A stretch of DNA of 64,000 bases from Fibrobacter sp. UWB11 (GCF_900143015.1 NZ_FSRT01000003.1:248001-312000); one strand, 5' to 3'; counted from the first letter of the stretch, positions 2,494 through 17,209 are shown. A program made the numbers and translations. The notes: generated from the letters alone by a model not told the origin.

Positions 2494-4524
2494 TCAATAT
2501 TTAAGCGATGACATCTTGGTGATATTTCCATCAGCATCGAATGTTATATTGAAATAACCTTTACCTTCAAGAGTGCTTATAAAAAGCGGAACTGTCTTCG
2601 ATGCAAAAGAGGATTGCTTTTCAAAAGAGACATCAATGTTTTCGCCATTTAAAACAACCGACGACGCAAGCACCGCATCTTTGCTATTCAGTTCCCCGAA
2701 CGAGAAGAACGGATTTAGCGCCACCAAGAATCTCGGGAAATGGAATACCATTTTCTTTGAACCAACGACACTACTCAACAGACCTTCTTTTTCTTTCATT
2801 TCGTAAGAACAGCCCGTAGTCAACTGAAAGAGCGTTGCCTTGCTAAAGCGCTTACCGCTCATCTTTTTCGAAATATTCGTACGCTTAATTTTGTCTTCAT
2901 CGACCCAGATAATCAAGCTATCCGTCATGATAATCGCTCTTGCAGAAACAATATCTTCAACGCTGTTCTTTTGCTTTCCGTACAATTCGTAATTCAATTG
3001 GAGTTTTCCGAAATTTGCCTTAGAATAAGGTTCGATGTTATTGATTGTTGTTTCCATCTTTTTGACCAAATAATCATCGGCATACATATCGGTCAGGTGC
3101 AAGCAAATAAACAGGCGGACATTGGAAAGGCGCTTATCGGAGCGGTTTTCAATTTCAATAGCAAGTTTATCCGAGAACGAAAGTGTCGGATTGTACGTTT
3201 GCAAATCCAAGAAAGAATGTTCCTCGAAAATCATGTCCAAGATTTTGGGCATATACTGTTCGACAAACTTCATGTCAGAAATCAAGTAATCATACACTTC
3301 CTGATTTCCACGACGGAAAAAGTGCTTTAAAATTTCTTCTTTGGCAGCGGAGTAATTTTCTTTGTTGTAGGCGACCATTGCCTTTTGGAAGTTCGGTGAA
3401 TAGAATCCAAAGCCTTCCATCATGGACTTGTAATGCTTCAACACGACATGGCCTTCTTTAGACTTCAGAATATAATTGCGGTAATTGTAGGAATTGTACA
3501 TGTCCAATAATTTTTCCGCTTCACGAGGATATTCTACAGAAGACTGGTCAAACAAAGTAGCAGCTTTCGCGTTATCGCCTTGCTGCGTGTAATAAGTACC
3601 AAGCAAAAGTAAAGCCGGTGCAGCTTTATCAGGATGTTCTTTTATGTATTGGTTCAGAATGTCGCGGGCGTTATCCGCATTATGCACATCACCGGAAACG
3701 TCTAGACCCTTTTCTGCTTTATAAAGCAAGCAAAAAGATTTAAGCAGTTGCGATTCTGAATCGGTAGGATACTTCTGCAGCACAGCATTGAGCGATTCAA
3801 GTGCACCATCGATATCGCCATTGTTAATTGCAAGATACGCCTTGTCACGCAACAAGCACATTTCATTCCACATCGCCAAATACTTCAAATAAAGTACAGA
3901 GTATTCACTCAAGTAATTCAAATACGCATCTTTATTTTCTTCCAGCGCTTTTTTGGCGCTCTTTTCTATTTCATCATTCTTCAAAATCTCGTTATAAAAA
4001 TTTGCACCCGAAGATACACCTACCGTTGCAAGCGATAAAAATGCAGTAGGATCAAATCCTCCCGTTGCAGCAATTTGAGCAATCGGAGATGTCACATTCT
4101 TAAGATCTACAGATTTTTTTATGGCGTTCCAATAACGTTTCTTTTGCGTTTCGTTCAAATCATATTCTGCCGAACGGATTCCCTTGTACAACGGGAGCAG
4201 TTTCTTTTCTGCTTCAAGGACTTCATCCGGGATTCCGCTGTAATCTTGAGTTGCCAAAAATTGCAAATACTCAAACATGCTCTCGGTCGTCGAATAGCCA
4301 TCGTTCAAAATATGGAACAAGCGAATTGTCTTTTCGAGATCAAGCGGTTTATCATCACGCTTTTGAGGAATACTTTGTTCCTCTTTTTCTGCATTTTCAA
4401 AAACAGTCTCTACAGAATCAATTTCTTTTTGAATTTCAACTTTTTTAGAATGATGCGACACCAAAAGATACGCGACAGGAATCGCGATAACGATAACCAA
4501 GAATAACAAGCAACCTTTTTTCAT
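2494..4524 (-). CDS. Membrane-anchored TPR protein of unknown function
   Basis: A 676-residue protein I do not recognise as a named family. The N-terminus (MKKGCLLFLVIVIAIPVAYLL) is one hydrophobic helix, either an uncleaved anchor or signal; Cys5 is too near the start for a lipobox. A charged helical region follows, then at about residues 230-420 helical pairs typical of tetratricopeptide repeats (NNGDIDGALESLNAVLQKYP; LLGTYYTQQGDNAKAATLFD). The C-terminal 250 residues look beta-rich, with no motif I can name. The gene starts 18 bases after the upstream RyR-domain gene, so the two are very likely co-transcribed and may work together; a TPR partner would suit a scaffold or adaptor role (inference). 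Confidence 0.75.
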   Translation of the reverse strand: MKKGCLLFLVIVIAIPVAYLLVSHHSKKVEIQKEIDSVETVFENAEKEEQSIPQKRDDKPLDLEKTIRLFHILNDGYSTTESMFEYLQFLATQDYSGIPDEVLEAEKKLLPLYKGIRSAEYDLNETQKKRYWNAIKKSVDLKNVTSPIAQIAATGGFDPTAFLSLATVGVSSGANFYNEILKNDEIEKSAKKALEENKDAYLNYLSEYSVLYLKYLAMWNEMCLLRDKAYLAINNGDIDGALESLNAVLQKYPTDSESQLLKSFCLLYKAEKGLDVSGDVHNADNARDILNQYIKEHPDKAAPALLLLGTYYTQQGDNAKAATLFDQSSVEYPREAEKLLDMYNSYNYRNYILKSKEGHVVLKHYKSMMEGFGFYSPNFQKAMVAYNKENYSAAKEEILKHFFRRGNQEVYDYLISDMKFVEQYMPKILDMIFEEHSFLDLQTYNPTLSFSDKLAIEIENRSDKRLSNVRLFICLHLTDMYADDYLVKKMETTINNIEPYSKANFGKLQLNYELYGKQKNSVEDIVSARAIIMTDSLIIWVDEDKIKRTNISKKMSGKRFSKATLFQLTTGCSYEMKEKEGLLSSVVGSKKMVFHFPRFLVALNPFFSFGELNSKDAVLASSVVLNGENIDVSFEKQSSFASKTVPLFISTLEGKGYFNITFDADGNITKMSSLKY

Positions 4525-4542
4525 TTTTAGCCTTTCGAAATA

Positions 4543-6189
4543 TTATCCGTTCATAATGTATTCAGCATTTTCAAGGATATAAGAATCCTTCATCTTCATG
4601 TCTTCAGGCAAGCGATCAAAAGGAATGATATCGTGACGAGTAAATGTTCTTTCGTCGGTCGGACCAGAGCGATACCCCATCAAAAGCATGGACATCATCC
4701 AACGGCGATGTTCAGCATCGCGTAATAGGGAATCGTCATCCGTGATTTCAAAGCAGCGTTTGCGAAGGGGCAATGCGTTTGCACAATAAATCGATGCGGT
4801 CTTATCGGCTTCACTCAAACGATACCACAATTTTTCTTCGGTATCGCGCGTATCGGGATTCAGATGGCGTTCGCGAACATAGTTAGCACGTTGCCCGCGT
4901 TCTACACGCCTAGAATGTACAAACTCCTTCATTTCGTCAATGTCGCCCATAATGCGCACATAGCCGTACATTCCACTTTCGTTGATGTTCTTGATGATTT
5001 CGTCATTGGCTTCACGCCAGTAAACGGCGATGTCGGCATTGTCATAAACAGCACGCGGCAAATGCACAAGTGTCGAAATCGCCTTGGATGCATCTTCCTT
5101 ACAAATGCACACCACAAGACGTTCCTTGGGGCTTGCCGCTACGGCCGCAATAAAATTACGAGCCAAATCCGCTTCGCAGTATGCATCTACAAAATTCCAC
5201 TCCACATCAAGATAGTCGCCACGCGATGTTTCGGGATCATGAGTGACTTTGTTACCATTCGCGTCGACATAGGTGTATTTGGAGAGTCTAAAAAGTCCCA
5301 TGCGAGAAACAACTAGACGGTCTACCCACTTTTCACAATCTTCATCGACAAAGGTTATGCACGTTTTTAAATTTGTTCGTTTAAAATTAGGATAATGGCA
5401 CACGTTTGCAACAGCAAAAGCAACCGCCTGAGCAATGGGACCCGTGCCAATCAGCACCACATGCAAACGTTCATTTTCGGCTTCGCGGATGGTCGGCAAA
5501 AAATCCGTTCCGACAAGCAACTGTTCCGACATGAATTCGTATTCATTAAATACGTCGACCAGCAAATGACCTTTATTCTGTTCCGGCGCCTTCAAGTACC
5601 ACAGCACTTCCGAAGTCGAAGGTTCGCACAAAAGCAAATGGCAATGGATATCGCGCATCGCCTTTTCGCTAATGGTGCGCAACACCTCAATGCAATGCAA
5701 GTTACGGGAATCACGTTCCGGGCCATCTTCGCCAATCACAAGAATCATATCGGCCAGAAGCGCACCCGCATAAAGCAAATCTTCTTCGCTTTCGTAATCT
5801 TTTTTATAATGGATAAAATGGCCATCAATATCGCGGCGGCTCATGACAACAATCGGACGCTTATCGCCTTTAAGTGCCCGCAGAATACTTTTGAGCTGGT
5901 GACCCGCGCCAAGCACAAGCACATGACCGCGAACATCGACATGCTTTTTGCCTTCACGCATCGATTCCGACGTATTCTTGAAAACATTAATCATGACGCT
6001 GATAAACAGCACCGCAAAAACAACATAGCCCGATAAAAAGCCCTTCCAGCCAAGTGACTTTTCGCCAAGCACCCAAGAGCCAAGCATCACACCGGCAACA
6101 AAAATAATCAGCGACAAGCCCAGCAAAATCAAAAGTTTCTTGGCGATTCCATTCGACCATGCGCCTTTTATTAGACCTTTAAAATTCAT
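4543..6189 (-). CDS. Two-TM membrane protein with tandem TrkA-N-like domains and C-terminal RyR domain
   Basis: A 548-residue protein. Two hydrophobic helices (about residues 18-42 and 52-71) are followed by two Rossmann units: GHVLVLGAGHQLKS near residue 90 and HVVLIGTGPIAQAVA near residue 245, each with the glycine-rich turn of TrkA-N/RCK nucleotide-binding domains. The last 100 residues match the RyR repeat (AEHRRWMMSMLLMGYRSG, then PFDRLPEDMKMKDSY), a module known from ryanodine receptors and from bacterial proteins. The loop between the two helices is only about ten residues and has no TVGYG-like selectivity filter, so it does not look like a normal K+ channel pore. Plausible role: membrane sensor of a nucleotide ligand (inference). 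It precedes the TPR gene by 18 bases. Confidence 0.85.
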   Translation of the reverse strand: MNFKGLIKGAWSNGIAKKLLILLGLSLIIFVAGVMLGSWVLGEKSLGWKGFLSGYVVFAVLFISVMINVFKNTSESMREGKKHVDVRGHVLVLGAGHQLKSILRALKGDKRPIVVMSRRDIDGHFIHYKKDYESEEDLLYAGALLADMILVIGEDGPERDSRNLHCIEVLRTISEKAMRDIHCHLLLCEPSTSEVLWYLKAPEQNKGHLLVDVFNEYEFMSEQLLVGTDFLPTIREAENERLHVVLIGTGPIAQAVAFAVANVCHYPNFKRTNLKTCITFVDEDCEKWVDRLVVSRMGLFRLSKYTYVDANGNKVTHDPETSRGDYLDVEWNFVDAYCEADLARNFIAAVAASPKERLVVCICKEDASKAISTLVHLPRAVYDNADIAVYWREANDEIIKNINESGMYGYVRIMGDIDEMKEFVHSRRVERGQRANYVRERHLNPDTRDTEEKLWYRLSEADKTASIYCANALPLRKRCFEITDDDSLLRDAEHRRWMMSMLLMGYRSGPTDERTFTRHDIIPFDRLPEDMKMKDSYILENAEYIMNG

Positions 6190-6248: not shown

Positions 6249-9200
6249 TTAGCACTTGACGCCAGCACCACTGAGGACGCTACGGCCACCGCACGGAGTA
6301 ACTTCTATATGCGTAGGAAGTTCGCTCTTGACCAAATCCACATGCGTGATGACTCCTAGAAGTTTGCCTTTTTCCTGCTGCATTTTCTGAAGCACAATGA
6401 CCGTCTCCTGGAGCATCTTGGAATCAAGCGTTCCAAAGCCTTCATCGAGAAACATCGAATCAATGCGCACATTTCTGCTTGCAAGCGTCGAGATTCCAAG
6501 CGCAAGCGAGAGACTTACAAGGAATCCTTCGCCACCAGAAATATTGTCAATCGGGCGCACAGCATCGCTGTTGTCATGATCGACAAGCTGAATATTAAGT
6601 GTATTCGGTTCAGTAATCATTTCATAACGCGGGAACATATCGCGCAGATAGCTATTTGCAATTTTCAGCAAATTACGCAGCGTAATCGTCTGGATAAAGC
6701 GAACAAATACATCGCCATTGCCCGTATCAAGCCTATTGCCGTTAAACCAGCGTTGCATCTGTTCCCAGTCAGCGCGTTTCGACTTGAGTTTTGCAAGTTC
6801 CGCCTGCATGTCATTGAACCTTTGACGAAGCTGAGCGTCATTTTCCTTTTGCGCAGCCCAAGTGGCAAGATTTACAGTGCACTCATTCAGTTTAGCCTTA
6901 GCCGATTCGCTATTGTGCTTTGCCAAATCTTCGGATTCTTCGAAGTTTCGCTTCTCTAAATGTTTGGCGAGCTGATCATTAAAATTCTTGACCGAAGTCT
7001 GTGCAGTTGTTAAATTGTCTTCAACATTCTTTTGTATTTGCTGAAGCGACTTGCGTTCGGCTTCGGGAAGTTTTGCAGCAATAAACTCTTGTTCATCCGC
7101 AAAGGATTTTGACGATAGATTTTCAAGGAACAGTGTTTGCGTTTGTGCAAGTTTCTGTTTTGCATCAGCAATACGACGTTCCAATTCCACAATAGAATTG
7201 TCTAGCGCAATTTTAGCTTCACGCATTTGCTGTTCTTTACGGAGCGATTCACTGGCCAAGGCTTCTGCAGACTCACGTAAAGTTCGCGCCTTATTACGTT
7301 CTACTTCAACTGATTTCTCGCCAAAAATTTCCTTGCGTTTTGCATCAAGCGTATTCAGATTTTGCTGAATTTCATTTTGCTTGGCAGAAGCTTCTTCCAA
7401 CCGCACCTTTGCGCGAGCAAAATTGTCTTGATGTTGGACTTTAGCAGAATGGTCCATATTCAAATCATTCTCAACTTTGACCTTTTTCTCCTGCGCTTTT
7501 TTCCACCAAGAATTTTTCTTTTCCAACTCAGCAACCAAAGTGTCAATATCTTCCATGCGGACATTCGAAAACCATTCTGCAAAAGCAGTTTCAACATCCT
7601 GAGAAATTTTCTGCAATTTGGATTGAGACTTTTTAAGCGATTCTTCTACGGCATTTGCTTCGCTAACAATATTTGCACGATTTACTGCAGCTTGATTTAC
7701 TTCGTTCTGCAAAGATTCGAACTTTTCTTTTTTCTGCAGATAAACATTCTTCAGTTCAGAAACCTTTTGTAGAATTTCGCGTGCTGTTTCAATTGATGCC
7801 GACAACTTCCACGATTCGAGTTTTACATTCAATTGTTCAAGCGAACGCGATTCATCATCCGCGCTTTCGTTCTTTTTGCGCAGACATTCATCAAGCACTT
7901 CTTCAAAATATTTCTGCTGCGTTGCAAAGCCATCGAGCGCACGCTGGACCAGTTCCATTTCACCATTGATTTTGCGCAATTCATCTGCAAAATCATTCAA
8001 GCGGTCAGCTCCATTTTCAACCTTTTCGGCATTTTCACAAGAAACGTGCTCTCGAGAGCCACAGACAGGGCAAGGCTCGCCTGACTTTAAGTGATGACGC
8101 AATTCTGCAACAACAACAGGAATATCGTCCTGAATAATCCTTTCTTTCTCTTTTTGCAAAGACGATATTTTTTCAAAAGACTGAGCACTCTCCGCCTTTA
8201 CATTATCAAGTTGTTTTTGTTTTGCATCTATTTCGACTTGCAAACGTTCAAGTTCCTTTCGCTGACGTTCCGCATCATCTGCAAGGCGATTCATTTCAGG
8301 AAGTATATTTACAAGTTCTGCATCGACTTGATGTTCCGTCAAATACTCCTGCAATATTTGCAATTCCCTTTTCTGCGTTTCAAAATCAGCATCAAAATTT
8401 TGCAGGGATTTTTTAAGATTTTCAAGTTTCTGGATTTCATCAGATACATTTTCGCTTTCAGATTTCCATTCTGCAATCTGCGATTTCAAAAGCGAAATTT
8501 GTCCATCAATCAATTCATCTTTCGAATTTTCTGCAATGTACTTCGTAACTTTTTCCAAAGCCTGTTCATTATCAGAAATCCGTTTATCTGTTTCACCAAT
8601 TTTCTTTTGAGCGTCCTCGGATTCGGCCACAGACTTTGCAACAGAATCGTTTACATTTTGGAGTTGACCTCGAGCATTTCGAATATCAACATCTAGCGAC
8701 GAAACTTGTTCCCACACCGTTTCATTTGCAGAGTAATCCGCTTTGCACTTTTCAAAAGCAGCCTGTGCTTCGCGATTTTTCACAGAAGCCTGTTCAAGAT
8801 CAGATACAGCAGCCGGAAGCTTTCCCTTATTTTCTACAAGTTGCGATTCAATGCGTGCAAGATTTTCACGTACAGAATTAAATTCGACAAAAGACGATTC
8901 CACTTCTTGAGCATGCAAAGCGCGTTCTAACTTATTGCGATTCGGTTCAAATTCTGCTTTTGCACGTTCCGCATTTTCAAGCTGTATTTTTGCATCCGAC
9001 AAAAGCTTTTCAAAGCCATGCAGATTTTCAAACCATGTGCAAATATAAAGGAGACGTTCTGCATCTTTTGCAAGCGTTTGCTTTTGCAACTCCGCCGCAG
9101 AAATTTTCGTATTCAAATCCGTGAGTTCTTCTTCGCTCAATAAACTCACATCACCCATTTTACGTTCAACATCTTCGACAGCTTTATCGGCGCTTGCATA

Positions 9201-9776
9201 CAAATCATGAACAGCCACTGCAATTTTTCTATAGATACCATCACCCGTAAGCTTTTCGAGAATCGCGGCGCGTTCATTTTCATTACACTTCAAGAACTTA
9301 TTAAATTCGCCCTGCGCAAGCATCATCGACTTTGTAAATTGGCCAAAATCAAGACCAATCACGCGAGTCATTGTAGCTTCAATTTCAGACTGTTTCGAGA
9401 ACGAACATTCTACCGTTTGTGCGGTCTCGTCCGTCAGCACCCAAGAATACTTTTGAAGTTTATTCGTTCTTGCAGAACGGTGTTGTTCCCAACGGGCAGA
9501 ATAAATAGTATTGCCACATTCAAAAAACACCTTTGCATAGCAATTCTTGGCGCCATAAGTCATCACTTCATTGGATTCGCCCACAATGGCACCCAAGCGA
9601 GGCGTTTTACCATACAAGCCAAGGCAAATAGCATCAAGGATAGAAGTCTTTCCAGAACCGGTCGGACCCGAAATGCAAAACATACCGCTTTTTGCAAAAT
9701 CCGGGGACTCAAAATCAATCGTCCATTCGTGAGCAAGGGAGTTAATATTGCAAAATTCAATTTTCTTAATTTTCAT
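6249..9776 (-). CDS. sbcC: Exonuclease subunit SbcC (Rad50-like ATPase)
   Basis: The 1175-residue ATPase of the SbcCD nuclease, which trims hairpins and blocked DNA ends. Walker A (GPTGSGKTSILDA) is near residue 38. Long heptad-rich coiled coils fill residues about 180-1000, split by the zinc hook CPVCG near residue 568. The signature NISGGEGFLVSLSLALG lies near residue 1078 and Walker B FLDEGFGTLD near residue 1107. All parts of an intact SMC-type head are visible and the length is normal. SbcD lies nine bases upstream in the same direction, so the two subunits are co-transcribed. RmuC lies just upstream of that. Confidence 0.97.
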   Translation of the reverse strand: MKIKKIEFCNINSLAHEWTIDFESPDFAKSGMFCISGPTGSGKTSILDAICLGLYGKTPRLGAIVGESNEVMTYGAKNCYAKVFFECGNTIYSARWEQHRSARTNKLQKYSWVLTDETAQTVECSFSKQSEIEATMTRVIGLDFGQFTKSMMLAQGEFNKFLKCNENERAAILEKLTGDGIYRKIAVAVHDLYASADKAVEDVERKMGDVSLLSEEELTDLNTKISAAELQKQTLAKDAERLLYICTWFENLHGFEKLLSDAKIQLENAERAKAEFEPNRNKLERALHAQEVESSFVEFNSVRENLARIESQLVENKGKLPAAVSDLEQASVKNREAQAAFEKCKADYSANETVWEQVSSLDVDIRNARGQLQNVNDSVAKSVAESEDAQKKIGETDKRISDNEQALEKVTKYIAENSKDELIDGQISLLKSQIAEWKSESENVSDEIQKLENLKKSLQNFDADFETQKRELQILQEYLTEHQVDAELVNILPEMNRLADDAERQRKELERLQVEIDAKQKQLDNVKAESAQSFEKISSLQKEKERIIQDDIPVVVAELRHHLKSGEPCPVCGSREHVSCENAEKVENGADRLNDFADELRKINGEMELVQRALDGFATQQKYFEEVLDECLRKKNESADDESRSLEQLNVKLESWKLSASIETAREILQKVSELKNVYLQKKEKFESLQNEVNQAAVNRANIVSEANAVEESLKKSQSKLQKISQDVETAFAEWFSNVRMEDIDTLVAELEKKNSWWKKAQEKKVKVENDLNMDHSAKVQHQDNFARAKVRLEEASAKQNEIQQNLNTLDAKRKEIFGEKSVEVERNKARTLRESAEALASESLRKEQQMREAKIALDNSIVELERRIADAKQKLAQTQTLFLENLSSKSFADEQEFIAAKLPEAERKSLQQIQKNVEDNLTTAQTSVKNFNDQLAKHLEKRNFEESEDLAKHNSESAKAKLNECTVNLATWAAQKENDAQLRQRFNDMQAELAKLKSKRADWEQMQRWFNGNRLDTGNGDVFVRFIQTITLRNLLKIANSYLRDMFPRYEMITEPNTLNIQLVDHDNSDAVRPIDNISGGEGFLVSLSLALGISTLASRNVRIDSMFLDEGFGTLDSKMLQETVIVLQKMQQEKGKLLGVITHVDLVKSELPTHIEVTPCGGRSVLSGAGVKC

Positions 9777-9785
9777 CGTACACCC

Positions 9786-11057
9786 CTATGCTTCGTGCGC
9801 CTTGCTTACCGCTTCATTAAACAAACTAATGAACTTATCGTACTGATTTTTTACTTCTTCGGATTCGTCATTTTCTTGAAGATTCGTGGCAATCAACATT
9901 CTAAAGTAGTCTTCTTTCGTGTACTGTTTTGTTGACTCCACACAATCATCAAAGCCTTTTACACCGCGTAAAACATCTCGCGAAATGCGATGACGCTTGA
10001 CCACAAAATGCTTGCCCGATTCTTCGGCTTCCAGGGCGTCATTCAAGCTCACAAAATCACCCGATGTCAAAAGCAAATCGACATAGGTTTCCATCGGCTT
10101 GGCAACAAGTTCTTTTTCCAAGTTGCGCAATTTCAACTTGAGCGTTTCGATATCGCCTTTGAACTGTTCAAAGCGAACCGCTTTCGGGACTTCTATTTTT
10201 TCGACAACAGGAACCATACCTTGAGCAACATCAACAGTAAGCACATAGCGTTTGCAATTCGCTTCATCGAAGCCCATCACGAACGGAGAACCGGAATAAC
10301 GCACTTTCGGATTTTTTGCAACCATCGATGTGTAGTGAATATGCCCTAAAGCAACATAATCAAGTTCACTCGGGAACGTAGTAACATCCACATTTCCAAG
10401 CGTACCTACAACTTCTCGAACACCATCATCCACGGAAGTTTCAGGAATCACTTCATTTTCGCCAGCAACTTCAGCATCGCGACCAGAAAGATTGGCCGCA
10501 TACAAATGACCTGTTGCTATAATAGGAATGTTACGATTACCGCGCAATTCAACAGCATGGCTATACACATCTGCATAAAGGCGCTTTAACAAATCTTCGT
10601 CTGAACTGGCACCTTTATAAAACTGTTCCAGTTCCAAATTGCGCATGAACGGCACGGCGCAACAGATACCGATAACATGACCTTCACCATCTTTCAATTC
10701 AATAACCAAATCATCAACTTTACGATTATTGATAGAACCGATGACTCTGATATTCAAAGCATCAAGAATCCCCGCAGGTGCATCAAGCAGCGTTCCCGAA
10801 TCGTGATTACCCCCCACCACAATAACATTGGAGCACTTTGTCGTAAGGAGTGAAGCTAAAAATTTATAATACTGCGTCTTTGCAATATTCGAAGGATTTA
10901 CCACATCGAAAATATCACCCGCAATAACAAGCGCCTGTGCACCAATCGTTTCAATTTCGGCTTTCAGCCATTCTAAAAACGCACCCGTTTCTCGCGTGCG
11001 ATCAATATCATGCATTGTATTACCAAGATGCCAGTCTGCGGTATGGATAAACTTCAT
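9786..11057 (-). CDS. sbcD: Exonuclease subunit SbcD (Mre11-like phosphoesterase)
   Basis: The 423-residue nuclease subunit paired with SbcC. Calcineurin-like phosphoesterase motifs appear in order: HTADWHLGN at residues 4-12, GDIFD near 47, GGNHDS near 80, ATGHLY near 183 and ALGHIHY near 238. These supply the two-metal site for 3'-5' exonuclease and hairpin endonuclease activity. It lies nine bases upstream of sbcC and 37 bases after rmuC, in one minus-strand run devoted to DNA end processing. Confidence 0.97.
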   Translation of the reverse strand: MKFIHTADWHLGNTMHDIDRTRETGAFLEWLKAEIETIGAQALVIAGDIFDVVNPSNIAKTQYYKFLASLLTTKCSNVIVVGGNHDSGTLLDAPAGILDALNIRVIGSINNRKVDDLVIELKDGEGHVIGICCAVPFMRNLELEQFYKGASSDEDLLKRLYADVYSHAVELRGNRNIPIIATGHLYAANLSGRDAEVAGENEVIPETSVDDGVREVVGTLGNVDVTTFPSELDYVALGHIHYTSMVAKNPKVRYSGSPFVMGFDEANCKRYVLTVDVAQGMVPVVEKIEVPKAVRFEQFKGDIETLKLKLRNLEKELVAKPMETYVDLLLTSGDFVSLNDALEAEESGKHFVVKRHRISRDVLRGVKGFDDCVESTKQYTKEDYFRMLIATNLQENDESEEVKNQYDKFISLFNEAVSKAHEA

Positions 11058-11094: not shown

Positions 11095-12231
11095 CTACTT
11101 TAACTTTTCGTTGACCGTCTTTGCGCTTGCAATCCCAAGCTGTTTCATGGTTTCAAAACGGCTAAGGATATTTCCCTTGCCATCTTTCAATTGTCCAAGC
11201 GCATCGGCATAAGTCGTTTGCACCACATTCAGCTGGCGTCCCATCTTCACAAAGTTATCCGTAAAGCCGCAGAATTTTTCATAAAGTCCTTCGGCCGTTT
11301 TCATAATATTCACGCAATTTTCTTCTTGGCGCGTATTCTGCCATGTCAGCAAAATGAGATTCAACGCAAGCATCAAATTCGTCGGATTGATAATCAACAC
11401 GCCCTTACGATAAGCCTTTTGTGCAATGGCCGGATCCTTATTCACCGCCAAGATGTAGCTACCTTCATTCGGCACAAACATAAGCACATACGGAACCGCA
11501 TGCGGAACGACCTTCGGGTAATTCTTATCTGCAAGTTCATCGACATGTTTTACGATGCTTGCCAAATTTTCCTTGCACGCGATTTCTCGCGCTTCGTCAT
11601 TTTCTGCAGAAACATAATCCGTATAAGCTGTAAGTGAGACTTTCGAATCGACAATCACGTTAGAGCCATCCGAACATTTCACAATAACATCTGGGCGTAA
11701 TTCATGACCGTTTTCATCCGTGTAGCTTTTCTGCGTAAAGTATTCCATATTTTCGCGCAGGCCGCTATCGCTCAAAATATTCGAAAGCACTACTTCGCCC
11801 CAGTCGCCCTGCACTTTGCCTCGATTCTTGAGGGCATCGGCAAGATTTTCCGCATCCATCCCGAGTTTGCGCGATTGTTCGACCATCGTTTTGATAGCGC
11901 CATTCAGTTCCGCAATATTCTTGTCGTTCCCTTCTTTTGCACGTCCAAGCATTTCGCGCATATTATCGAGTTCTTTGAGCAAAGGCTTCGTAAAAGTTTC
12001 CATGTGCTCACGGTTTTCGCCCTTGAATTCCTCACTGCGTTCCTTAAGCAATCGCGCAGAAACAGCCTCGAATTGAGATTTCATTGCCGAAAGTTCCGCA
12101 TTGAATAAAGCCTCGTGATTTGCATGAGCAGAACGCCCCAATTTATGCACCACAAGAGCCCCCACCAAAACACCAATAGCAAAAGCCACAACAGCAACCG
12201 CCGAAATAATCAAAGAAGTCATGTCCATCAT
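11095..12231 (-). CDS. rmuC: DNA recombination protein RmuC
   Basis: 378 residues with an N-terminal hydrophobic helix (about residues 6-30), a charged coiled-coil stretch (about 35-110) and the conserved RmuC domain (NRGKVQGDWGEVVLSNIL; RPDVIVKCSDGSNVIVDSKV; NPTNLMLALNLILLTW). The VDSKV and E..V elements resemble a PD-(D/E)XK nuclease core. RmuC limits inversions at short inverted repeats in E. coli. Its position beside sbcCD, also specific for inverted-repeat structures, is a sensible pairing, since this genome carries palindromic repeats (see repeat features). Confidence 0.95.
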   Translation of the reverse strand: MMDMTSLIISAVAVVAFAIGVLVGALVVHKLGRSAHANHEALFNAELSAMKSQFEAVSARLLKERSEEFKGENREHMETFTKPLLKELDNMREMLGRAKEGNDKNIAELNGAIKTMVEQSRKLGMDAENLADALKNRGKVQGDWGEVVLSNILSDSGLRENMEYFTQKSYTDENGHELRPDVIVKCSDGSNVIVDSKVSLTAYTDYVSAENDEAREIACKENLASIVKHVDELADKNYPKVVPHAVPYVLMFVPNEGSYILAVNKDPAIAQKAYRKGVLIINPTNLMLALNLILLTWQNTRQEENCVNIMKTAEGLYEKFCGFTDNFVKMGRQLNVVQTTYADALGQLKDGKGNILSRFETMKQLGIASAKTVNEKLK

Positions 12232-12341: not shown

Positions 12342-12719
12342 ATGGATTACGAATACAGTGTCATAGGTTCTATTTTCTGCAAAGCAGATATTCTTTCTGC
12401 CGCCGCCGAGAATTCTGTTTTTACGTATAACGGCTACAATTTCGCGCTCCGAAAGTTCAGTGACTGTATAAGCGTAAGTCTCCACGGCACCACCGATGAC
12501 ACATCCAGCAACATCAGTGAAATTTGCCACAACATCTCCGAAAAAGATGTTTCAGATGTTTGCAAGTTCCTTTCCGAAAAATACGCCTGCAAAGTTTCCA
12601 TGCGCAAAGGTTACGAAGTTTACGGCAATGCCAATGTTTTCAACGGAGGCTCCGATTACGAAGTCATCGAAGAGAAATGGTTTAAGGTCCAATTCGAAAA
12701 CGGAATTCAAGTGGTCTAA
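12342..12719 (+). CDS. Small orphan protein, unknown
   Basis: A 125-residue reading frame with balanced amino-acid composition, no signal peptide, no membrane segment and no motif I recognise. It is the only plus-strand gene between the rmuC and histidine kinase genes and overlaps the histidine kinase stop by four bases, tail to tail. No clear Shine-Dalgarno precedes the ATG. A 68-codon frame on the opposite strand (12324-12530) competes over the first half, but the plus frame is longer. Probably real and lineage-specific. Confidence 0.55.
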   Translation: MDYEYSVIGSIFCKADILSAAAENSVFTYNGYNFALRKFSDCISVSLHGTTDDTSSNISEICHNISEKDVSDVCKFLSEKYACKVSMRKGYEVYGNANVFNGGSDYEVIEEKWFKVQFENGIQVV

Positions 12720-15700
12720 CGAAAGAATTTTGCGAGGGTAGCGCAAAGGACTTCAACGTCAACAGGCTTTGCCACGTGATCGTTCATTCCCGCATCCATT
12801 GCAGCACGCTTATCTTCATCGAACGCGTTTGCCGTCATTGCAATAATTGGCACGTTCGAAATATCCTTATCCTTCATCGCACGAATTTGACGCGTCGCCT
12901 CATAGCCATCAATTCCCGGCATCTGGATATCCATCAAAATAGCATCATACTTGACCGATGAATACTTGAGCTTTTCTACAGCAAGGTCACCTCGTTCCAT
13001 TGCAGTTACTTCAACGCCACGATCCTCAAGGATTTCCGTAGAAATTTCACGATTGAGCGCATTATCCTCAACAAGCATCACCTTTCGGCCAATAAAATCA
13101 TATTTCTTAGGTTCACTCAAGTGCGTTTCAAAATCAATCTTCGAACCCGATGAACCACAGAACTTCTGCAAGATGCAATGCAAATCCGACAAGAACAACG
13201 GTTTTGCAAAGAACGATGTCACGCCCGCTTCAAACGCTTCCTTTTCAATATCAATCCAATCATACGATGTCAGCACGACTATCGGCACAGCCGTTCCGAC
13301 AACCTTACGGATTTGTCGCGTAATCTGGATTCCCTTCATTTCGGGCATATTCCAGTCAATCAAGAACAAGCGATAATCGTCGTTTGCTTTGTGCGATTTT
13401 TTGATACACGCAAGGGCTTCATCACCCGACATGCACAAATCATAGCGCAAGTTTTCCTTCTTTAACGCAGCGGCTACAGTTTTACAAATATCCGGTCGAT
13501 CATTTACAATCAAGCAATGCAGCCCTGCAAATTGTTCACTTGCAACAGAAACAGGCGATTCTTCACCAAGTTTGAACTTGAATGTCATGAGGACTTCAGT
13601 CCCCACTTGTTCCTGGCTCTTAATATTGATTGTCCCGCCCATCATATCCACGATATTCTTCGTGATGGACATACCAAGGCCAGTTCCCTGAATACCGCTC
13701 ACCGTCGAAGAATTCACGCGAGTAAACGGAGCAAAAATTTGCTTCAAGAATTCTTCATTCATGCCGATACCATTGTCTTTCACCAAGAATTCATAAATGG
13801 CATAGCCCGGTTCAGCAGAAACTTCCTTAATGTTCATCGAGACAGCACCCTTTTCAGGAGTGTACTTGATGGCATTAGAAACAACATTCAACAAGACTTG
13901 ATTCAAGCGCAATTTATCGCACATGATCATTTCGTTGTGAACATTTTCAAGTTCAACAACAAACTGCTGCTTACGAGAGCGAACATCCGAAAGAACAATT
14001 CCCTTTAAGGTATGGATAATATCCGAAAGGCTTTCCAACCGATTCGTAATATTCATCTTTCCCGACTCAATGCGGCTCATATCAAGAACGTCATTGATGA
14101 GCGAAAGCAGATGCTCCGAAGATTGGCTGATTTTCGAAAGGTAGTCAGCCACCTGTTCCTTGTTGTCGATATGTTCTGTGGCAAGGCCCGTAAAGCCGAT
14201 AATTGCATTCATCGGCGTACGAATATCATGGCTCATGTTGTTAAGGAATGTCGTCTTTGCACGGCTTGCAGAATTTGCCATCAAGAGCGCTTGTTCCAAA
14301 GCCTCTTTATCTTTTTTCTGCTTACGCGTTTCTTCGTCAACGCTATGGAAACCAGCAACAATTTGCACCGGATTTGTCGCCGTCAACACAAATTTAATTT
14401 GCCAATATTCAACATGTCCAAAGACATCCGCCTTGAAATTCACATAATAAGCATTCTTGTTTTTGAGATTTTCAAGAATGACATCTCTACGAGTAGATTT
14501 CAAAAACAGTTCGTAGTCTTCTTTGCTTACAAACTTTTCAACAATTACGCCAAGGCGTTCGTTAAAGCCCTTGATTTGCGGCCACTCCGGGAATAAACGC
14601 GGGAATAAATCCGTACAGCGATAAACATTTTCTCGCATGGAAACCGCATCGATATAGCACACCAAATCGAAGTCTTCGGCAAGGCCCTGAATCACGGCTT
14701 GCTGTTGAATTTCCTTGCGTAAAATATCGTCCTTGTCGGCAAAACCAAGTGCTGCAAATTTCGGATGGTTCGAATCGCCCACCTTCACGAATTTCATCTC
14801 GCAATAGCGATTCAAGAAATTCACGTACATGGTTTCAAAACTCTTTCGAGTCGAAAGTTGCTCACGGATATTCTTGATAGAACCGGCCTGCAACATACGA
14901 TTCTTGTAAATGCCACTAACAAACTTATCTACATAAACAGAGTACGCCGTAGAATATTTGACATTACGTTTAAACGTTTCACCAAACGAATTCGCAGTTG
15001 TCTTGTTCATGGAATAAGGCGTCATTTCTTCCGTTTCAAGATCGATGTAATAAACCGACGTGTATTCCGCAGAAAGCGCTTCGATAATGGAAATATTGCG
15101 TTCCAGTTCTTCTTTCTGTTCCGCAATTTTCTTGTTCAACTGGATTTTTTCGGCACGCTTTTTATCGATTGTTGCAAACGTCATAATGACAAGAGTTGCA
15201 ACGCCGTTTCTGCGTTCCACTACCTGCATTATAAAGCTCAACCATGGATTCCTGAAGCACGAAGCCTTGAAAATCAATTCACGGCGATCATCATGGGCAA
15301 GCAATCTTTGAATATACTGCGGACTTGCAAGACGAATCCATTCATCCTTGTATTCGCTATCGACAAGCTGCACCATTCTAAAGGCGCGATAAGAACAAGT
15401 GCTACGTTGCCTTTTATCGCCAAAATCAACCGCCTTTGATGGTAAAATTTCACGAGCCGAATCGTTTGACAAATCGCAAAGAAGAACAGCCTCGTATTCC
15501 GCCATAATCTTGTCATAAACAAAGCGGGCGCTGACTTCATCGTCGCGGTCAGCAAAGGCTACAACCATGGCGGTTGGCTCTTCGGTTTCAGCATCAACCT
15601 TCACGAACTTCATTTCGCTGTAGCGCACTTGCCCAGCAAAATTCGAACGGAAAAGAATCACATAAGTCTTATTGTTTCTAAGGTAAGCCTTGATATTATT

Positions 15701-17209
15701 GATATCACCGGCTTCAAGCATTTTTTCTTTATCGGCATCATAAACAAAGTCATTTACAAATCGCAAATACGCGTCATTGTACTTCGATCCAGATTTTATC
15801 ATGACATCGTAATAATGCTGCGACATGTCGTTCATGGAATACGGAATCACTTCATCGGTCAAAAGGTTGATATACATAACCGATGAATATTCTGAAGCAA
15901 GCACATCGATAATCGAGAGGTTGACTTCCAGTTCCTTCTTTTGCTGGGCGAGTTTTTCACTCAGGCACAGCCTTTCGGACTGGTCCCTATCCACAGCGGC
16001 TGCGGTCATGACGAGCATTGCTGGGACACCGTCAATCCTATCCAGAACACGAAATACGTTGCGACACCAAAAATACGAGCCATCTTCTGTCAAATGCTTA
16101 AAGACTATTTCTCGTCTATCCGTTTTCGCAAAAATCCGTTTTAATTTTTCGACACTCCCAAATTCATTCCACTGTTCACGAAATTCTTCATGAACAAATG
16201 CAGACGCATTTTTGAAGCCGACTTCAAAAGGAAGAATATCCTTTTCCTTGACATCGTTGTAATACTTCGACCTACGAACAACCTGTATTATGTTTTCTTC
16301 CAAGTTGATAAGGTCTATGTTTGAAAATTCTTCACCGACTTTTTCGTTGATTTTTTTGTTAATTACTTCATCGTTTTTATTGACAAAGCCCACCAAAAAT
16401 TCATTATCGTCACCGATATCAAAACGCATCACGCGCACTTCGTACCAGCGGGCATATCCAAGGGCAATGTCGCGGAACAGGTAGCGGAAGCTATGTTCAC
16501 GGGAAAGGCGACTGATGATGTTGTCCATCTCTAGACCTTTCAGCATCATCTCCCGATCAGCAGGGTGGATGATATCCATGGCCACAAGGCCCCTCGCGCC
16601 ATCCATCTTGCCTTCGAACGGGAAAAATCCCTTCAGTTCTTCTTTGCAGTAAAGCGTCCTGAACGTGTTCTTTGTCGGATTGAATACAAAAACGGATTCC
16701 ACCTTTTCGCCGAACTTCATAACGATGCTCTCGTTCAGGTGGCGTTCGAGTTCGTAACGTTGCTTGGAACGGATATCACGGTCCACATTGCGCAAGCGGA
16801 GTACAAAGCCCTTAAGCCCTTGTTCCCCGCGGTCGGCAAAAAAGCTCATTTGGAAATAGACTTCCGTACCGTCGAAAAGGCACCTGAAAGGCACTACATA
16901 CTGCGAATTTTTCTGGAGATTCTGGACAATGACATCGCGAAGAGTACTCTTATAAAAAATATCGCGGTCTTCATCACAAACAAAATTATCACGGATTAAA
17001 ACAAGGCGCTTACGGAGGTTGCATTCTCCACGAAGTGCTGGGACACGAGCCACAAGAAATTGGCTAGCATGGAAAATTTCAACATCTTCGTCTTCTGGAG
17101 TTTTCGTCAAATCCACATAGCAAACACAATCGAATTCATCAGCAATGGAATCAATAATCGCATTGCTTTTTTCGATCCGAGACTGTTGATTTGCATTGTT
17201 TTTTATCAT
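12716..17209 (-). CDS. Multi-PAS hybrid sensor histidine kinase with two receiver domains
   Basis: A 1497-residue cytoplasmic signalling protein with no membrane segment. Residues 1-960 hold at least four related sensor modules of roughly 130 residues (compare NLQKNSQYVVPFRCLFDG, YLRNNKTYVILFRSNFAG and NLKNKNAYYVNFKADVFG), plus two more PAS-like units. Then come the HisKA dimerisation helix with phospho-acceptor His994 (NMSHDIRTPMNAIIGF), the HATPase domain (GIGMNEEF, GTGLGMSI), receiver 1 with Asp1285 (FLIDWNMPEMKG) and receiver 2 with Asp1427 (ILMDIQMPGIDGYEA). In receiver 1 the acidic pocket reads VNDR where receiver 2 has VEDN, so receiver 2 is the more canonical. No cognate regulator is adjacent. 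Confidence 0.93.
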   Translation of the reverse strand: MIKNNANQQSRIEKSNAIIDSIADEFDCVCYVDLTKTPEDEDVEIFHASQFLVARVPALRGECNLRKRLVLIRDNFVCDEDRDIFYKSTLRDVIVQNLQKNSQYVVPFRCLFDGTEVYFQMSFFADRGEQGLKGFVLRLRNVDRDIRSKQRYELERHLNESIVMKFGEKVESVFVFNPTKNTFRTLYCKEELKGFFPFEGKMDGARGLVAMDIIHPADREMMLKGLEMDNIISRLSREHSFRYLFRDIALGYARWYEVRVMRFDIGDDNEFLVGFVNKNDEVINKKINEKVGEEFSNIDLINLEENIIQVVRRSKYYNDVKEKDILPFEVGFKNASAFVHEEFREQWNEFGSVEKLKRIFAKTDRREIVFKHLTEDGSYFWCRNVFRVLDRIDGVPAMLVMTAAAVDRDQSERLCLSEKLAQQKKELEVNLSIIDVLASEYSSVMYINLLTDEVIPYSMNDMSQHYYDVMIKSGSKYNDAYLRFVNDFVYDADKEKMLEAGDINNIKAYLRNNKTYVILFRSNFAGQVRYSEMKFVKVDAETEEPTAMVVAFADRDDEVSARFVYDKIMAEYEAVLLCDLSNDSAREILPSKAVDFGDKRQRSTCSYRAFRMVQLVDSEYKDEWIRLASPQYIQRLLAHDDRRELIFKASCFRNPWLSFIMQVVERRNGVATLVIMTFATIDKKRAEKIQLNKKIAEQKEELERNISIIEALSAEYTSVYYIDLETEEMTPYSMNKTTANSFGETFKRNVKYSTAYSVYVDKFVSGIYKNRMLQAGSIKNIREQLSTRKSFETMYVNFLNRYCEMKFVKVGDSNHPKFAALGFADKDDILRKEIQQQAVIQGLAEDFDLVCYIDAVSMRENVYRCTDLFPRLFPEWPQIKGFNERLGVIVEKFVSKEDYELFLKSTRRDVILENLKNKNAYYVNFKADVFGHVEYWQIKFVLTATNPVQIVAGFHSVDEETRKQKKDKEALEQALLMANSASRAKTTFLNNMSHDIRTPMNAIIGFTGLATEHIDNKEQVADYLSKISQSSEHLLSLINDVLDMSRIESGKMNITNRLESLSDIIHTLKGIVLSDVRSRKQQFVVELENVHNEMIMCDKLRLNQVLLNVVSNAIKYTPEKGAVSMNIKEVSAEPGYAIYEFLVKDNGIGMNEEFLKQIFAPFTRVNSSTVSGIQGTGLGMSITKNIVDMMGGTINIKSQEQVGTEVLMTFKFKLGEESPVSVASEQFAGLHCLIVNDRPDICKTVAAALKKENLRYDLCMSGDEALACIKKSHKANDDYRLFLIDWNMPEMKGIQITRQIRKVVGTAVPIVVLTSYDWIDIEKEAFEAGVTSFFAKPLFLSDLHCILQKFCGSSGSKIDFETHLSEPKKYDFIGRKVMLVEDNALNREISTEILEDRGVEVTAMERGDLAVEKLKYSSVKYDAILMDIQMPGIDGYEATRQIRAMKDKDISNVPIIAMTANAFDEDKRAAMDAGMNDHVAKPVDVEVLCATLAKFFR

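Follow-up and report, generated by a model that had tools for sequence, protein, structure and literature searches.

The 64,000-nucleotide stretch of Fibrobacter sp. UWB11 analysed here (GCF_900143015.1 NZ_FSRT01000003.1:248001-312000, referred to below as the window) encodes a 548-residue membrane protein in which two transmembrane (TM) helices are followed by a pair of RCK-type Rossmann domains and, at the C-terminus, a RyR domain. We propose that this protein, the product of the RyR-RCK gene, is a domesticated, pore-less offshoot of an RCK-gated membrane family with the order TM-pore loop-TM-RCK1-RCK2-RyR that is coupled to TIR enzymes in other lineages, and that it keeps a membrane sensor of ADP-ribose (ADPR) or adenine nucleotides; we put the probability of this reading at about 0.5. 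The computed observations behind it are the architecture, a descent shared with CASTOR-like channels, the loss of a loop in one clade only, the ligand residues of the RyR domain, the adjacency of relatives to TIR genes, and purifying selection on the gene.

Domain architecture

Single sequences revealed little of this architecture. Pfam, NCBIfam and PADLOC scans of the two proteins considered here, the 548-residue protein and the TPR protein encoded after it, returned no RyR, RCK or defence match, a Pfam scan of the 548-residue protein gave no TrkA_N or RyR match even at E = 10, and phmmer with this protein against the PDB gave noise only; profiles were therefore required. All of its domain matches are remote and become visible only through profiles and structure. 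An alignment with relatives of 41-48% identity (A1) matched the gating ring of LjCASTOR in the PDB (E = 0.0012) together with RyR structures. A Foldseek search with the AlphaFold2 (AF2) model, which is weak (mean predicted local distance difference test score, pLDDT, of 67), returned GsuK as the best match (2.8e-9), with LjCASTOR (7e-7) and Slo1 also found. The GxGxxA motif of the second RCK domain is intact, and the motif columns show GxGxx[AG] in most family members. As judged from model and profiles, the two predicted Rossmann domains are a dual RCK unit with the dual Rossmann gating-ring fold.

An earlier note on this DNA had described two membrane helices, two TrkA-N-like folds and a C-terminal RyR domain, and profiles and structure bear this out, if remotely. 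The Pfam models that it named as a check found nothing with the single sequence, and what stood of that check were the profile matches to RyR1 R12, RyDEP and CASTOR. The nucleotide-sensing role at the membrane that it suggested gains support from the dual RCK unit, the intact RCK2 motif and the conserved RyR ligand residues described below. The RCK-RyR membrane architecture as such is already recognisable by family databases in other bacteria.

A channel-type membrane unit without a pore loop

Alignment A1 also matched bacterial CASTOR-like channels of other genomes over TM1-loop-TM2-RCK1 (hhalign, E = 1.2e-14), and this computation shows that the TM/RCK part, as predicted, shares its descent with such channels. 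CASTOR/POLLUX/DMI1-type channels and their bacterial relatives have the order TM-pore loop-TM-RCK1-RCK2, like the window family; compared with CASTOR, the window protein lacks the pore loop, its second RCK domain is matched by structure only, and it carries a RyR domain where CASTOR has none. GsuK, a multi-ligand K+ channel, is likewise dual-RCK and is reported to be activated by ADP and NAD+ (PMC3510474); relative to GsuK, the window protein is without the K+ filter and pore and has gained a RyR domain.

The AF2 model places the TM helices at 14-40 and 44-78, and the 548-residue protein has no K+ filter or pore loop. The inter-helix link of the window clade is only SWVLGEKSLGWKGF, which is 14 residues by hydropathy and close to the ten or so first estimated, against 30-49 residues in Fibrobacter relatives and 35-56 in four measurable relatives outside Fibrobacter. 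The loops of the Fibrobacter relatives contain W...LDPS (L033 and L034) or W...LDAG (L035), that is W...LD[PA][GS], and resemble the W...LDPG and SDAG found at the loop of CASTOR-like proteins; the model of L034 has a short helix (42-50) in the loop, between the TM helices. Since the window clade falls in a group with Fibrobacter relatives that have the loop, and since every measurable relative outside Fibrobacter has it too, the simplest reading is that the short loop is a derived state and that the pore-loop segment was lost in the window clade only. The view that the protein is not a channel is right for the window protein and does not extend to its relatives, which keep the pore-loop segment.

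It is improbable that TM2 still forms a pore and that the protein, gated by ADPR, is a non-selective effector at the membrane, with abortive infection as one conceivable setting. TM2 does align with the pore-lining helix of CASTOR-like channels, and the relatives are TIR-coupled, but the loop has 14 residues, AF2 predicts a tight hairpin, and the strong constraint on the gene, its near-universal presence in the clade and the lack of a TIR partner are a poor fit for a toxic effector.

The RyR cap and its ligand residues

A C-terminal profile (A4) matched an RyR1 R12 chimera (E = 1.1e-6), the phage protein RyDEP (35tm, 1.1e-3) and bacterial RyR structures (about 0.02). The Pfam RyR family (PF02026) scored 13.0 bits on the window C-terminus, short of its curated cut-off of 27.4; it matched 13 of 16 family members below cut-off (best 5e-4) and gave no match in a genome-wide scan of the host genome. 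The predicted C-terminal RyR domain is real but remote.

In RyDEP, residues H75, W78, H100 and D117 hold or cleave 2'/3' cyclic ADP-ribose (cADPR), H75, W78 and D117 contacting cADPR/ADPR, and several phage RyR homologues bind without cleaving (PMC13232231). The A4 alignment places these residues at H494, W497, R518 and D535 of the window protein. Across 14 divergent members, with identities as low as 16%, E493, H494, R496 and W497 never vary and 13 members have D535, and the position of RyDEP H100 varies among members, also in clear RyR proteins. By eye, Sinorhizobium members retain the H and W and not the D. These conserved residues support a predicted nucleotide pocket and are no proof of a ligand.

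The window protein therefore has in common with RyDEP and the phage RyR anti-Thoeris proteins an RyR/R12 domain with H, W and D (PMC13232231); the RyDEP type, however, consists of stand-alone phage proteins, whereas the window domain caps a bacterial membrane RCK unit. Because H494 and D535 match the catalytic dyad of RyDEP (PMC13232231), the protein might be a membrane-bound RyDEP-like enzyme or sponge of the host's own, degrading or sequestering ADPR-type signals. We consider this very unlikely, as most of the tested phage RyDEP homologues bind and do not cleave (PMC13232231), Asn stands at D535 in L014 and L016, and a channel-type gating ring would be an odd chassis for a hydrolase.

Relatives paired with TIR enzymes

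Relatives with the order 2TM-RCK-RCK-RyR directly adjoin TIR-domain genes in four independent lineages, at distances of 3, 4, 23 and -11/22 nucleotides (nt). Within Fibrobacter, the TIR protein (TIR_2, 2e-16) starts 3 nt after the RCK-RyR gene in G005 and G030. The G005 locus (L034:7622-13347), which recurs in L033, is a same-strand run of a BnzB-like gene (PADLOC, 1e-29), a 126-residue protein, DUF1353, RCK-RyR and TIR with short or overlapping gaps, and an AbiU/AIPR-like gene lies nearby in G005; we regard the run as a candidate multi-gene defence locus. G229, from another phylum, encodes a 2TM-TrkA_N-RyR protein well above the Pfam cut-offs, 23 nt from a TIR-WD40 protein, and its hhalign alignment to A1 is co-linear across 446 columns (E = 5.9e-9). 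A search of 345 genomes of that phylum, made after the TIR link had already been noted, gave full-length matches in four genomes, three of them new (G606, G403 and G424), and a TIR gene stands beside all four (4, -11, 22 and 23 nt). The TIR-WD40 partner in G424 is broken by an early stop and a large loss (L159:8316-8633), and the RCK-RyR gene next to it is still open. L160:8545-13774, L158:8706-11658 and L124:4977-10024 are two-gene modules of a TIR protein and a 2TM-RCK-RCK-RyR protein, the TIR partners carrying WD40 repeats or a Fib_succ_major domain. The position of the catalytic Glu is kept, by eye, in all RCK-RyR-linked TIR genes.

Genomes hold one to five TIR_2 genes, and three of the TIR-linked genomes hold just the linked one. 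Under a simple model, chance adjacency to TIR in four of seven lineages has a probability of about 1e-10, which is rough since the lineages are non-random. In G147 the TIR gene is 782 nt from the RCK-RyR gene, and the cluster there (L126:6128-17295) contains the RCK-RyR membrane protein, TIR proteins and a RelA/SpoT-SLOG(LSDAT)-RyR protein.

Other relatives have no TIR partner. At L035:814-9550 (G040) the RCK-RyR gene adjoins genes for a vWA protein, a tubulin-like protein (Tubulin_2) and a 1229-residue protein of unknown kind, and in G265 and on Sinorhizobium plasmids the partner is instead a DUF4062-STAND/NB-ARC-TPR protein. The plasmids, three conjugative ones (L164, L165 and L166) found in a plasmid search with L126, are a miss for a strict TIR rule; on each the DUF4062-NB-ARC-TPR STAND-like protein overlaps the 2TM-RCK-RCK-RyR protein by 4 nt (L165:3368-7950), and the pair is annotated merely as a hypothetical and a TPR protein. 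A plasmid search with L158 and a phage search with L126 gave no match, and a second phylum test around G265, covering 7 genomes, added nothing new.

The TIR-coupled relatives L034, L124, L158, L160 and L159 have the domain order of the window protein and align co-linearly with L113 in hhalign (446 columns); unlike it, they possess a pore-loop segment and lie next to a TIR gene. The likeness to Thoeris (ThsB TIR with ThsA) lies in these relatives, where a TIR gene stands beside that of a protein with a domain of an ADPR-binding kind, although the partner is an RCK-RyR membrane protein and not SIR2-SLOG or macro-TM. PADLOC 2.0 assigned no family to either window protein or to seven related RyR-RCK proteins. 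A literature search on TrkA-N with RyR and TIR turned up the RyDEP paper alone (PMC13232231); neither the pore-less version nor the recurrent TIR pairing was found in the searchable literature, and an earlier description of the pairing elsewhere is possible. The link to stress or conflict systems made in the earlier note suits the wider family, which stands beside TIR, STAND or defence-type genes, but is not supported for the window copy, which has no PADLOC family and is constrained.

Since TIR enzymes make cyclic ADP-ribose signals, which phage RyR domains bind or cleave (PMC13232231), a likely circuit in the TIR-linked relatives would run from the TIR signal to the RyR cap, the RCK ring and the channel. 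It is possible, and we suggest it tentatively, that these proteins are TIR-signal-gated ion channels, in which an ADP-ribose signal from the TIR enzyme is bound by the RyR cap, which in turn opens or closes the RCK channel, and that the Fibrobacter protein is a domesticated descendant, its pore lost and its sensor retained. This broader TIR and RCK-RyR module is more interesting than the window copy.

Selection and gene neighbourhood

In a first survey the RyR-RCK gene was present in 21 of 151 relatives, all of one genus, as 18 close orthologues and 3 distant ones. The ratio of nonsynonymous to synonymous substitution rates (dN/dS) is 0.02-0.06 for the RyR-RCK gene, compared with 0.01-0.03 for pyrC, 0.03-0.04 for rmuC, 0.06-0.07 for the TPR gene and 0.08-0.17 for the adjacent sbcCD genes (sbcC 0.10-0.17), all approximate as dS is near or above 1. 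The likeness to pyrC and rmuC points to a strongly constrained core gene and not a fast-evolving effector. The window gene is a core gene of its clade and lies outside any variable island. A plasmid search with the window protein found no plasmid carrying a match, and viral contigs (IMG/VR) gave just one partial relative, 41-42% identical, at a contig edge (L064:3-2704). A phage tyrosine integrase is encoded roughly 1 kb away from the L064 relative.

This constraint suits a housekeeping regulator: an RCK subunit, tethered to the membrane, would sense the energy state (NAD(H)/ADP) on behalf of a separate K+ or Ca2+ transporter, and the RyR domain would be a structural cap, uninvolved in immunity. 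The window holds no defence neighbourhood, and responses to ADP, NAD+ or ATP are reported for the RCK units of GsuK and TrkA. We nevertheless think such a regulator unlikely, given that the surveyed orthologues have no adjoining transporter gene, that no other positions are conserved more strictly than the RyR ligand residues, and that the relatives are TIR-linked.

The coordinates of the locus are collected in Table 1.

Table 1. Genes and protein segments of the RyR-RCK locus, in window positions
Feature	Position	Strand	Basis or remark
RCK-RCK-RyR membrane protein, 548 residues	4543..6189	-	Open reading frame (ORF), profiles, Foldseek
TM helix 1, residues 19-37	6079..6135	-	Hydropathy 2.79; AF2 helix 14-40
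Inter-helix link, 14 residues	6037..6078	-	Site of the 30-49-residue pore-loop segment in relatives
TM helix 2, residues 52-70	5980..6036	-	Hydropathy; aligns with last TM helix of CASTOR-like channels
Predicted RCK1/TrkA_N-like Rossmann domain, residues ~85-235	5485..5937	-	CASTOR profile match, E = 0.0012; Foldseek GsuK/CASTOR
Predicted RCK2-like Rossmann domain, residues ~240-430	4900..5472	-	Foldseek; GxGxxA at 248-253
Predicted RyR (R12-type) domain, residues ~452-548	4546..4836	-	Profile A4, motif residues
TPR protein, 676 residues	2494..4524	-	N-terminal hydrophobic segment, residues 4-22; TPRs ~225-340
sbcC	6249..9776	-	59 nt upstream of the RyR-RCK gene
sbcD	9786..11057	-	Upstream neighbour
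rmuC	11095..12231	-	Pfam RmuC, 2.5e-86; context only

The minus-strand order in the window is sbcD, sbcC, the RyR-RCK gene and the TPR gene, which lies downstream after a gap of 18 nt. The ORF coordinates thus agree with the spacing and the sbcCD-rmuC neighbourhood given in the earlier note; its further idea of a conserved RyR-TPR pair fails, as just 5 of the 18 close orthologues are followed by the TPR gene. Five further TPR homologues (56-60%) are located elsewhere with no adjoining RyR gene. On these joint occurrences we rejected a general functional pair, and we infer that the TPR protein is an optional accessory neighbour. In G014 an HD-domain protein with HD_assoc (dNTPase-like, L036:7886-9061) replaces the TPR gene, 5 nt after the RyR gene.

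Adjacency to sbcC is more regular. It is directly upstream on the same strand with a gap below 190 nt in 14 of the 18 close orthologues, about 2.9 kb away in three and not upstream in one, and 17 carry the same sbcC type. A beta-helix gene lies between in the two 2.9-kb loci that were scanned; the encoded beta-helix repeat proteins are at L040:10974-13757 and L026:6211-8952. One may ask whether the protein is a partner of SbcCD in a DNA-damage or phage-DNA response, through a sbcD-sbcC-RyR(-TPR) operon, as the close, same-strand spacing and shared sbcC type would allow. The species are close, however, so that synteny is expected and may be ordinary inheritance. G045 keeps the RyR gene without that sbcCD, no RyR match accompanies that sbcC type (80-81%) in G020 and G035, three loci have the 2.9 kb between the genes, and the distant homologues have no sbcCD next to them; this partnership seems to us to have little probability.

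Beside the RyR-RCK locus, a conserved 1497-residue hybrid histidine kinase with two response-regulator domains is encoded at 12716-17209 on the minus strand. Its long N-terminal part has no Pfam matches.

A proposed role as a repurposed nucleotide sensor

On the reading we prefer, that of a domesticated, pore-less member of the TIR-coupled family, the window RyR domain would bind an ADP-ribose or adenine-nucleotide ligand, and the RCK unit would form a gating-ring-like assembly reading NAD(H)/ADP-type nucleotides. The readout in the window clade would no longer be ion flow. Ligand binding may instead govern assembly at the membrane or contact with a protein, or the H494/D535 dyad may turn over an ADPR-type signal. 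With sensor and ring kept, and with neither pore nor TIR, the protein may have been repurposed to sense nucleotides of the ADPR type or adenine nucleotides.

Several observations weigh against this. The close orthologues are confined to one Fibrobacter clade. The RyR region of the AF2 model is of low confidence (pLDDT below 50), so the RyR assignment rests on sequence profiles and motif residues and not on the model. R518 stands where RyDEP has its phosphate-contacting His, and the Asn at D535 noted above occurs in two close orthologues. No TIR gene adjoins the window RyR-RCK gene, TIR_2 is absent from the host genome (the search covered neither other TIR families nor other NADases) and it is absent from 8 of the 13 window-clade genomes searched, so a TIR-made ligand would not be supplied by the TIR_2 family there.

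The survey predicts that, in an RCK membrane protein with an RyR cap, the cap recognises a nucleotide made by a TIR enzyme. If this is true, TIR-gated RCK-RyR channels would give bacteria a counterpart to the debated link between cADPR and ryanodine receptors in animals, and would bear on whether cyclic ADP-ribose has a direct action on those receptors, a question reopened by the RyDEP paper (PMC13232231). The window protein, a highly conserved sensor without a pore, is a natural experiment that should separate signal binding from ion conduction.

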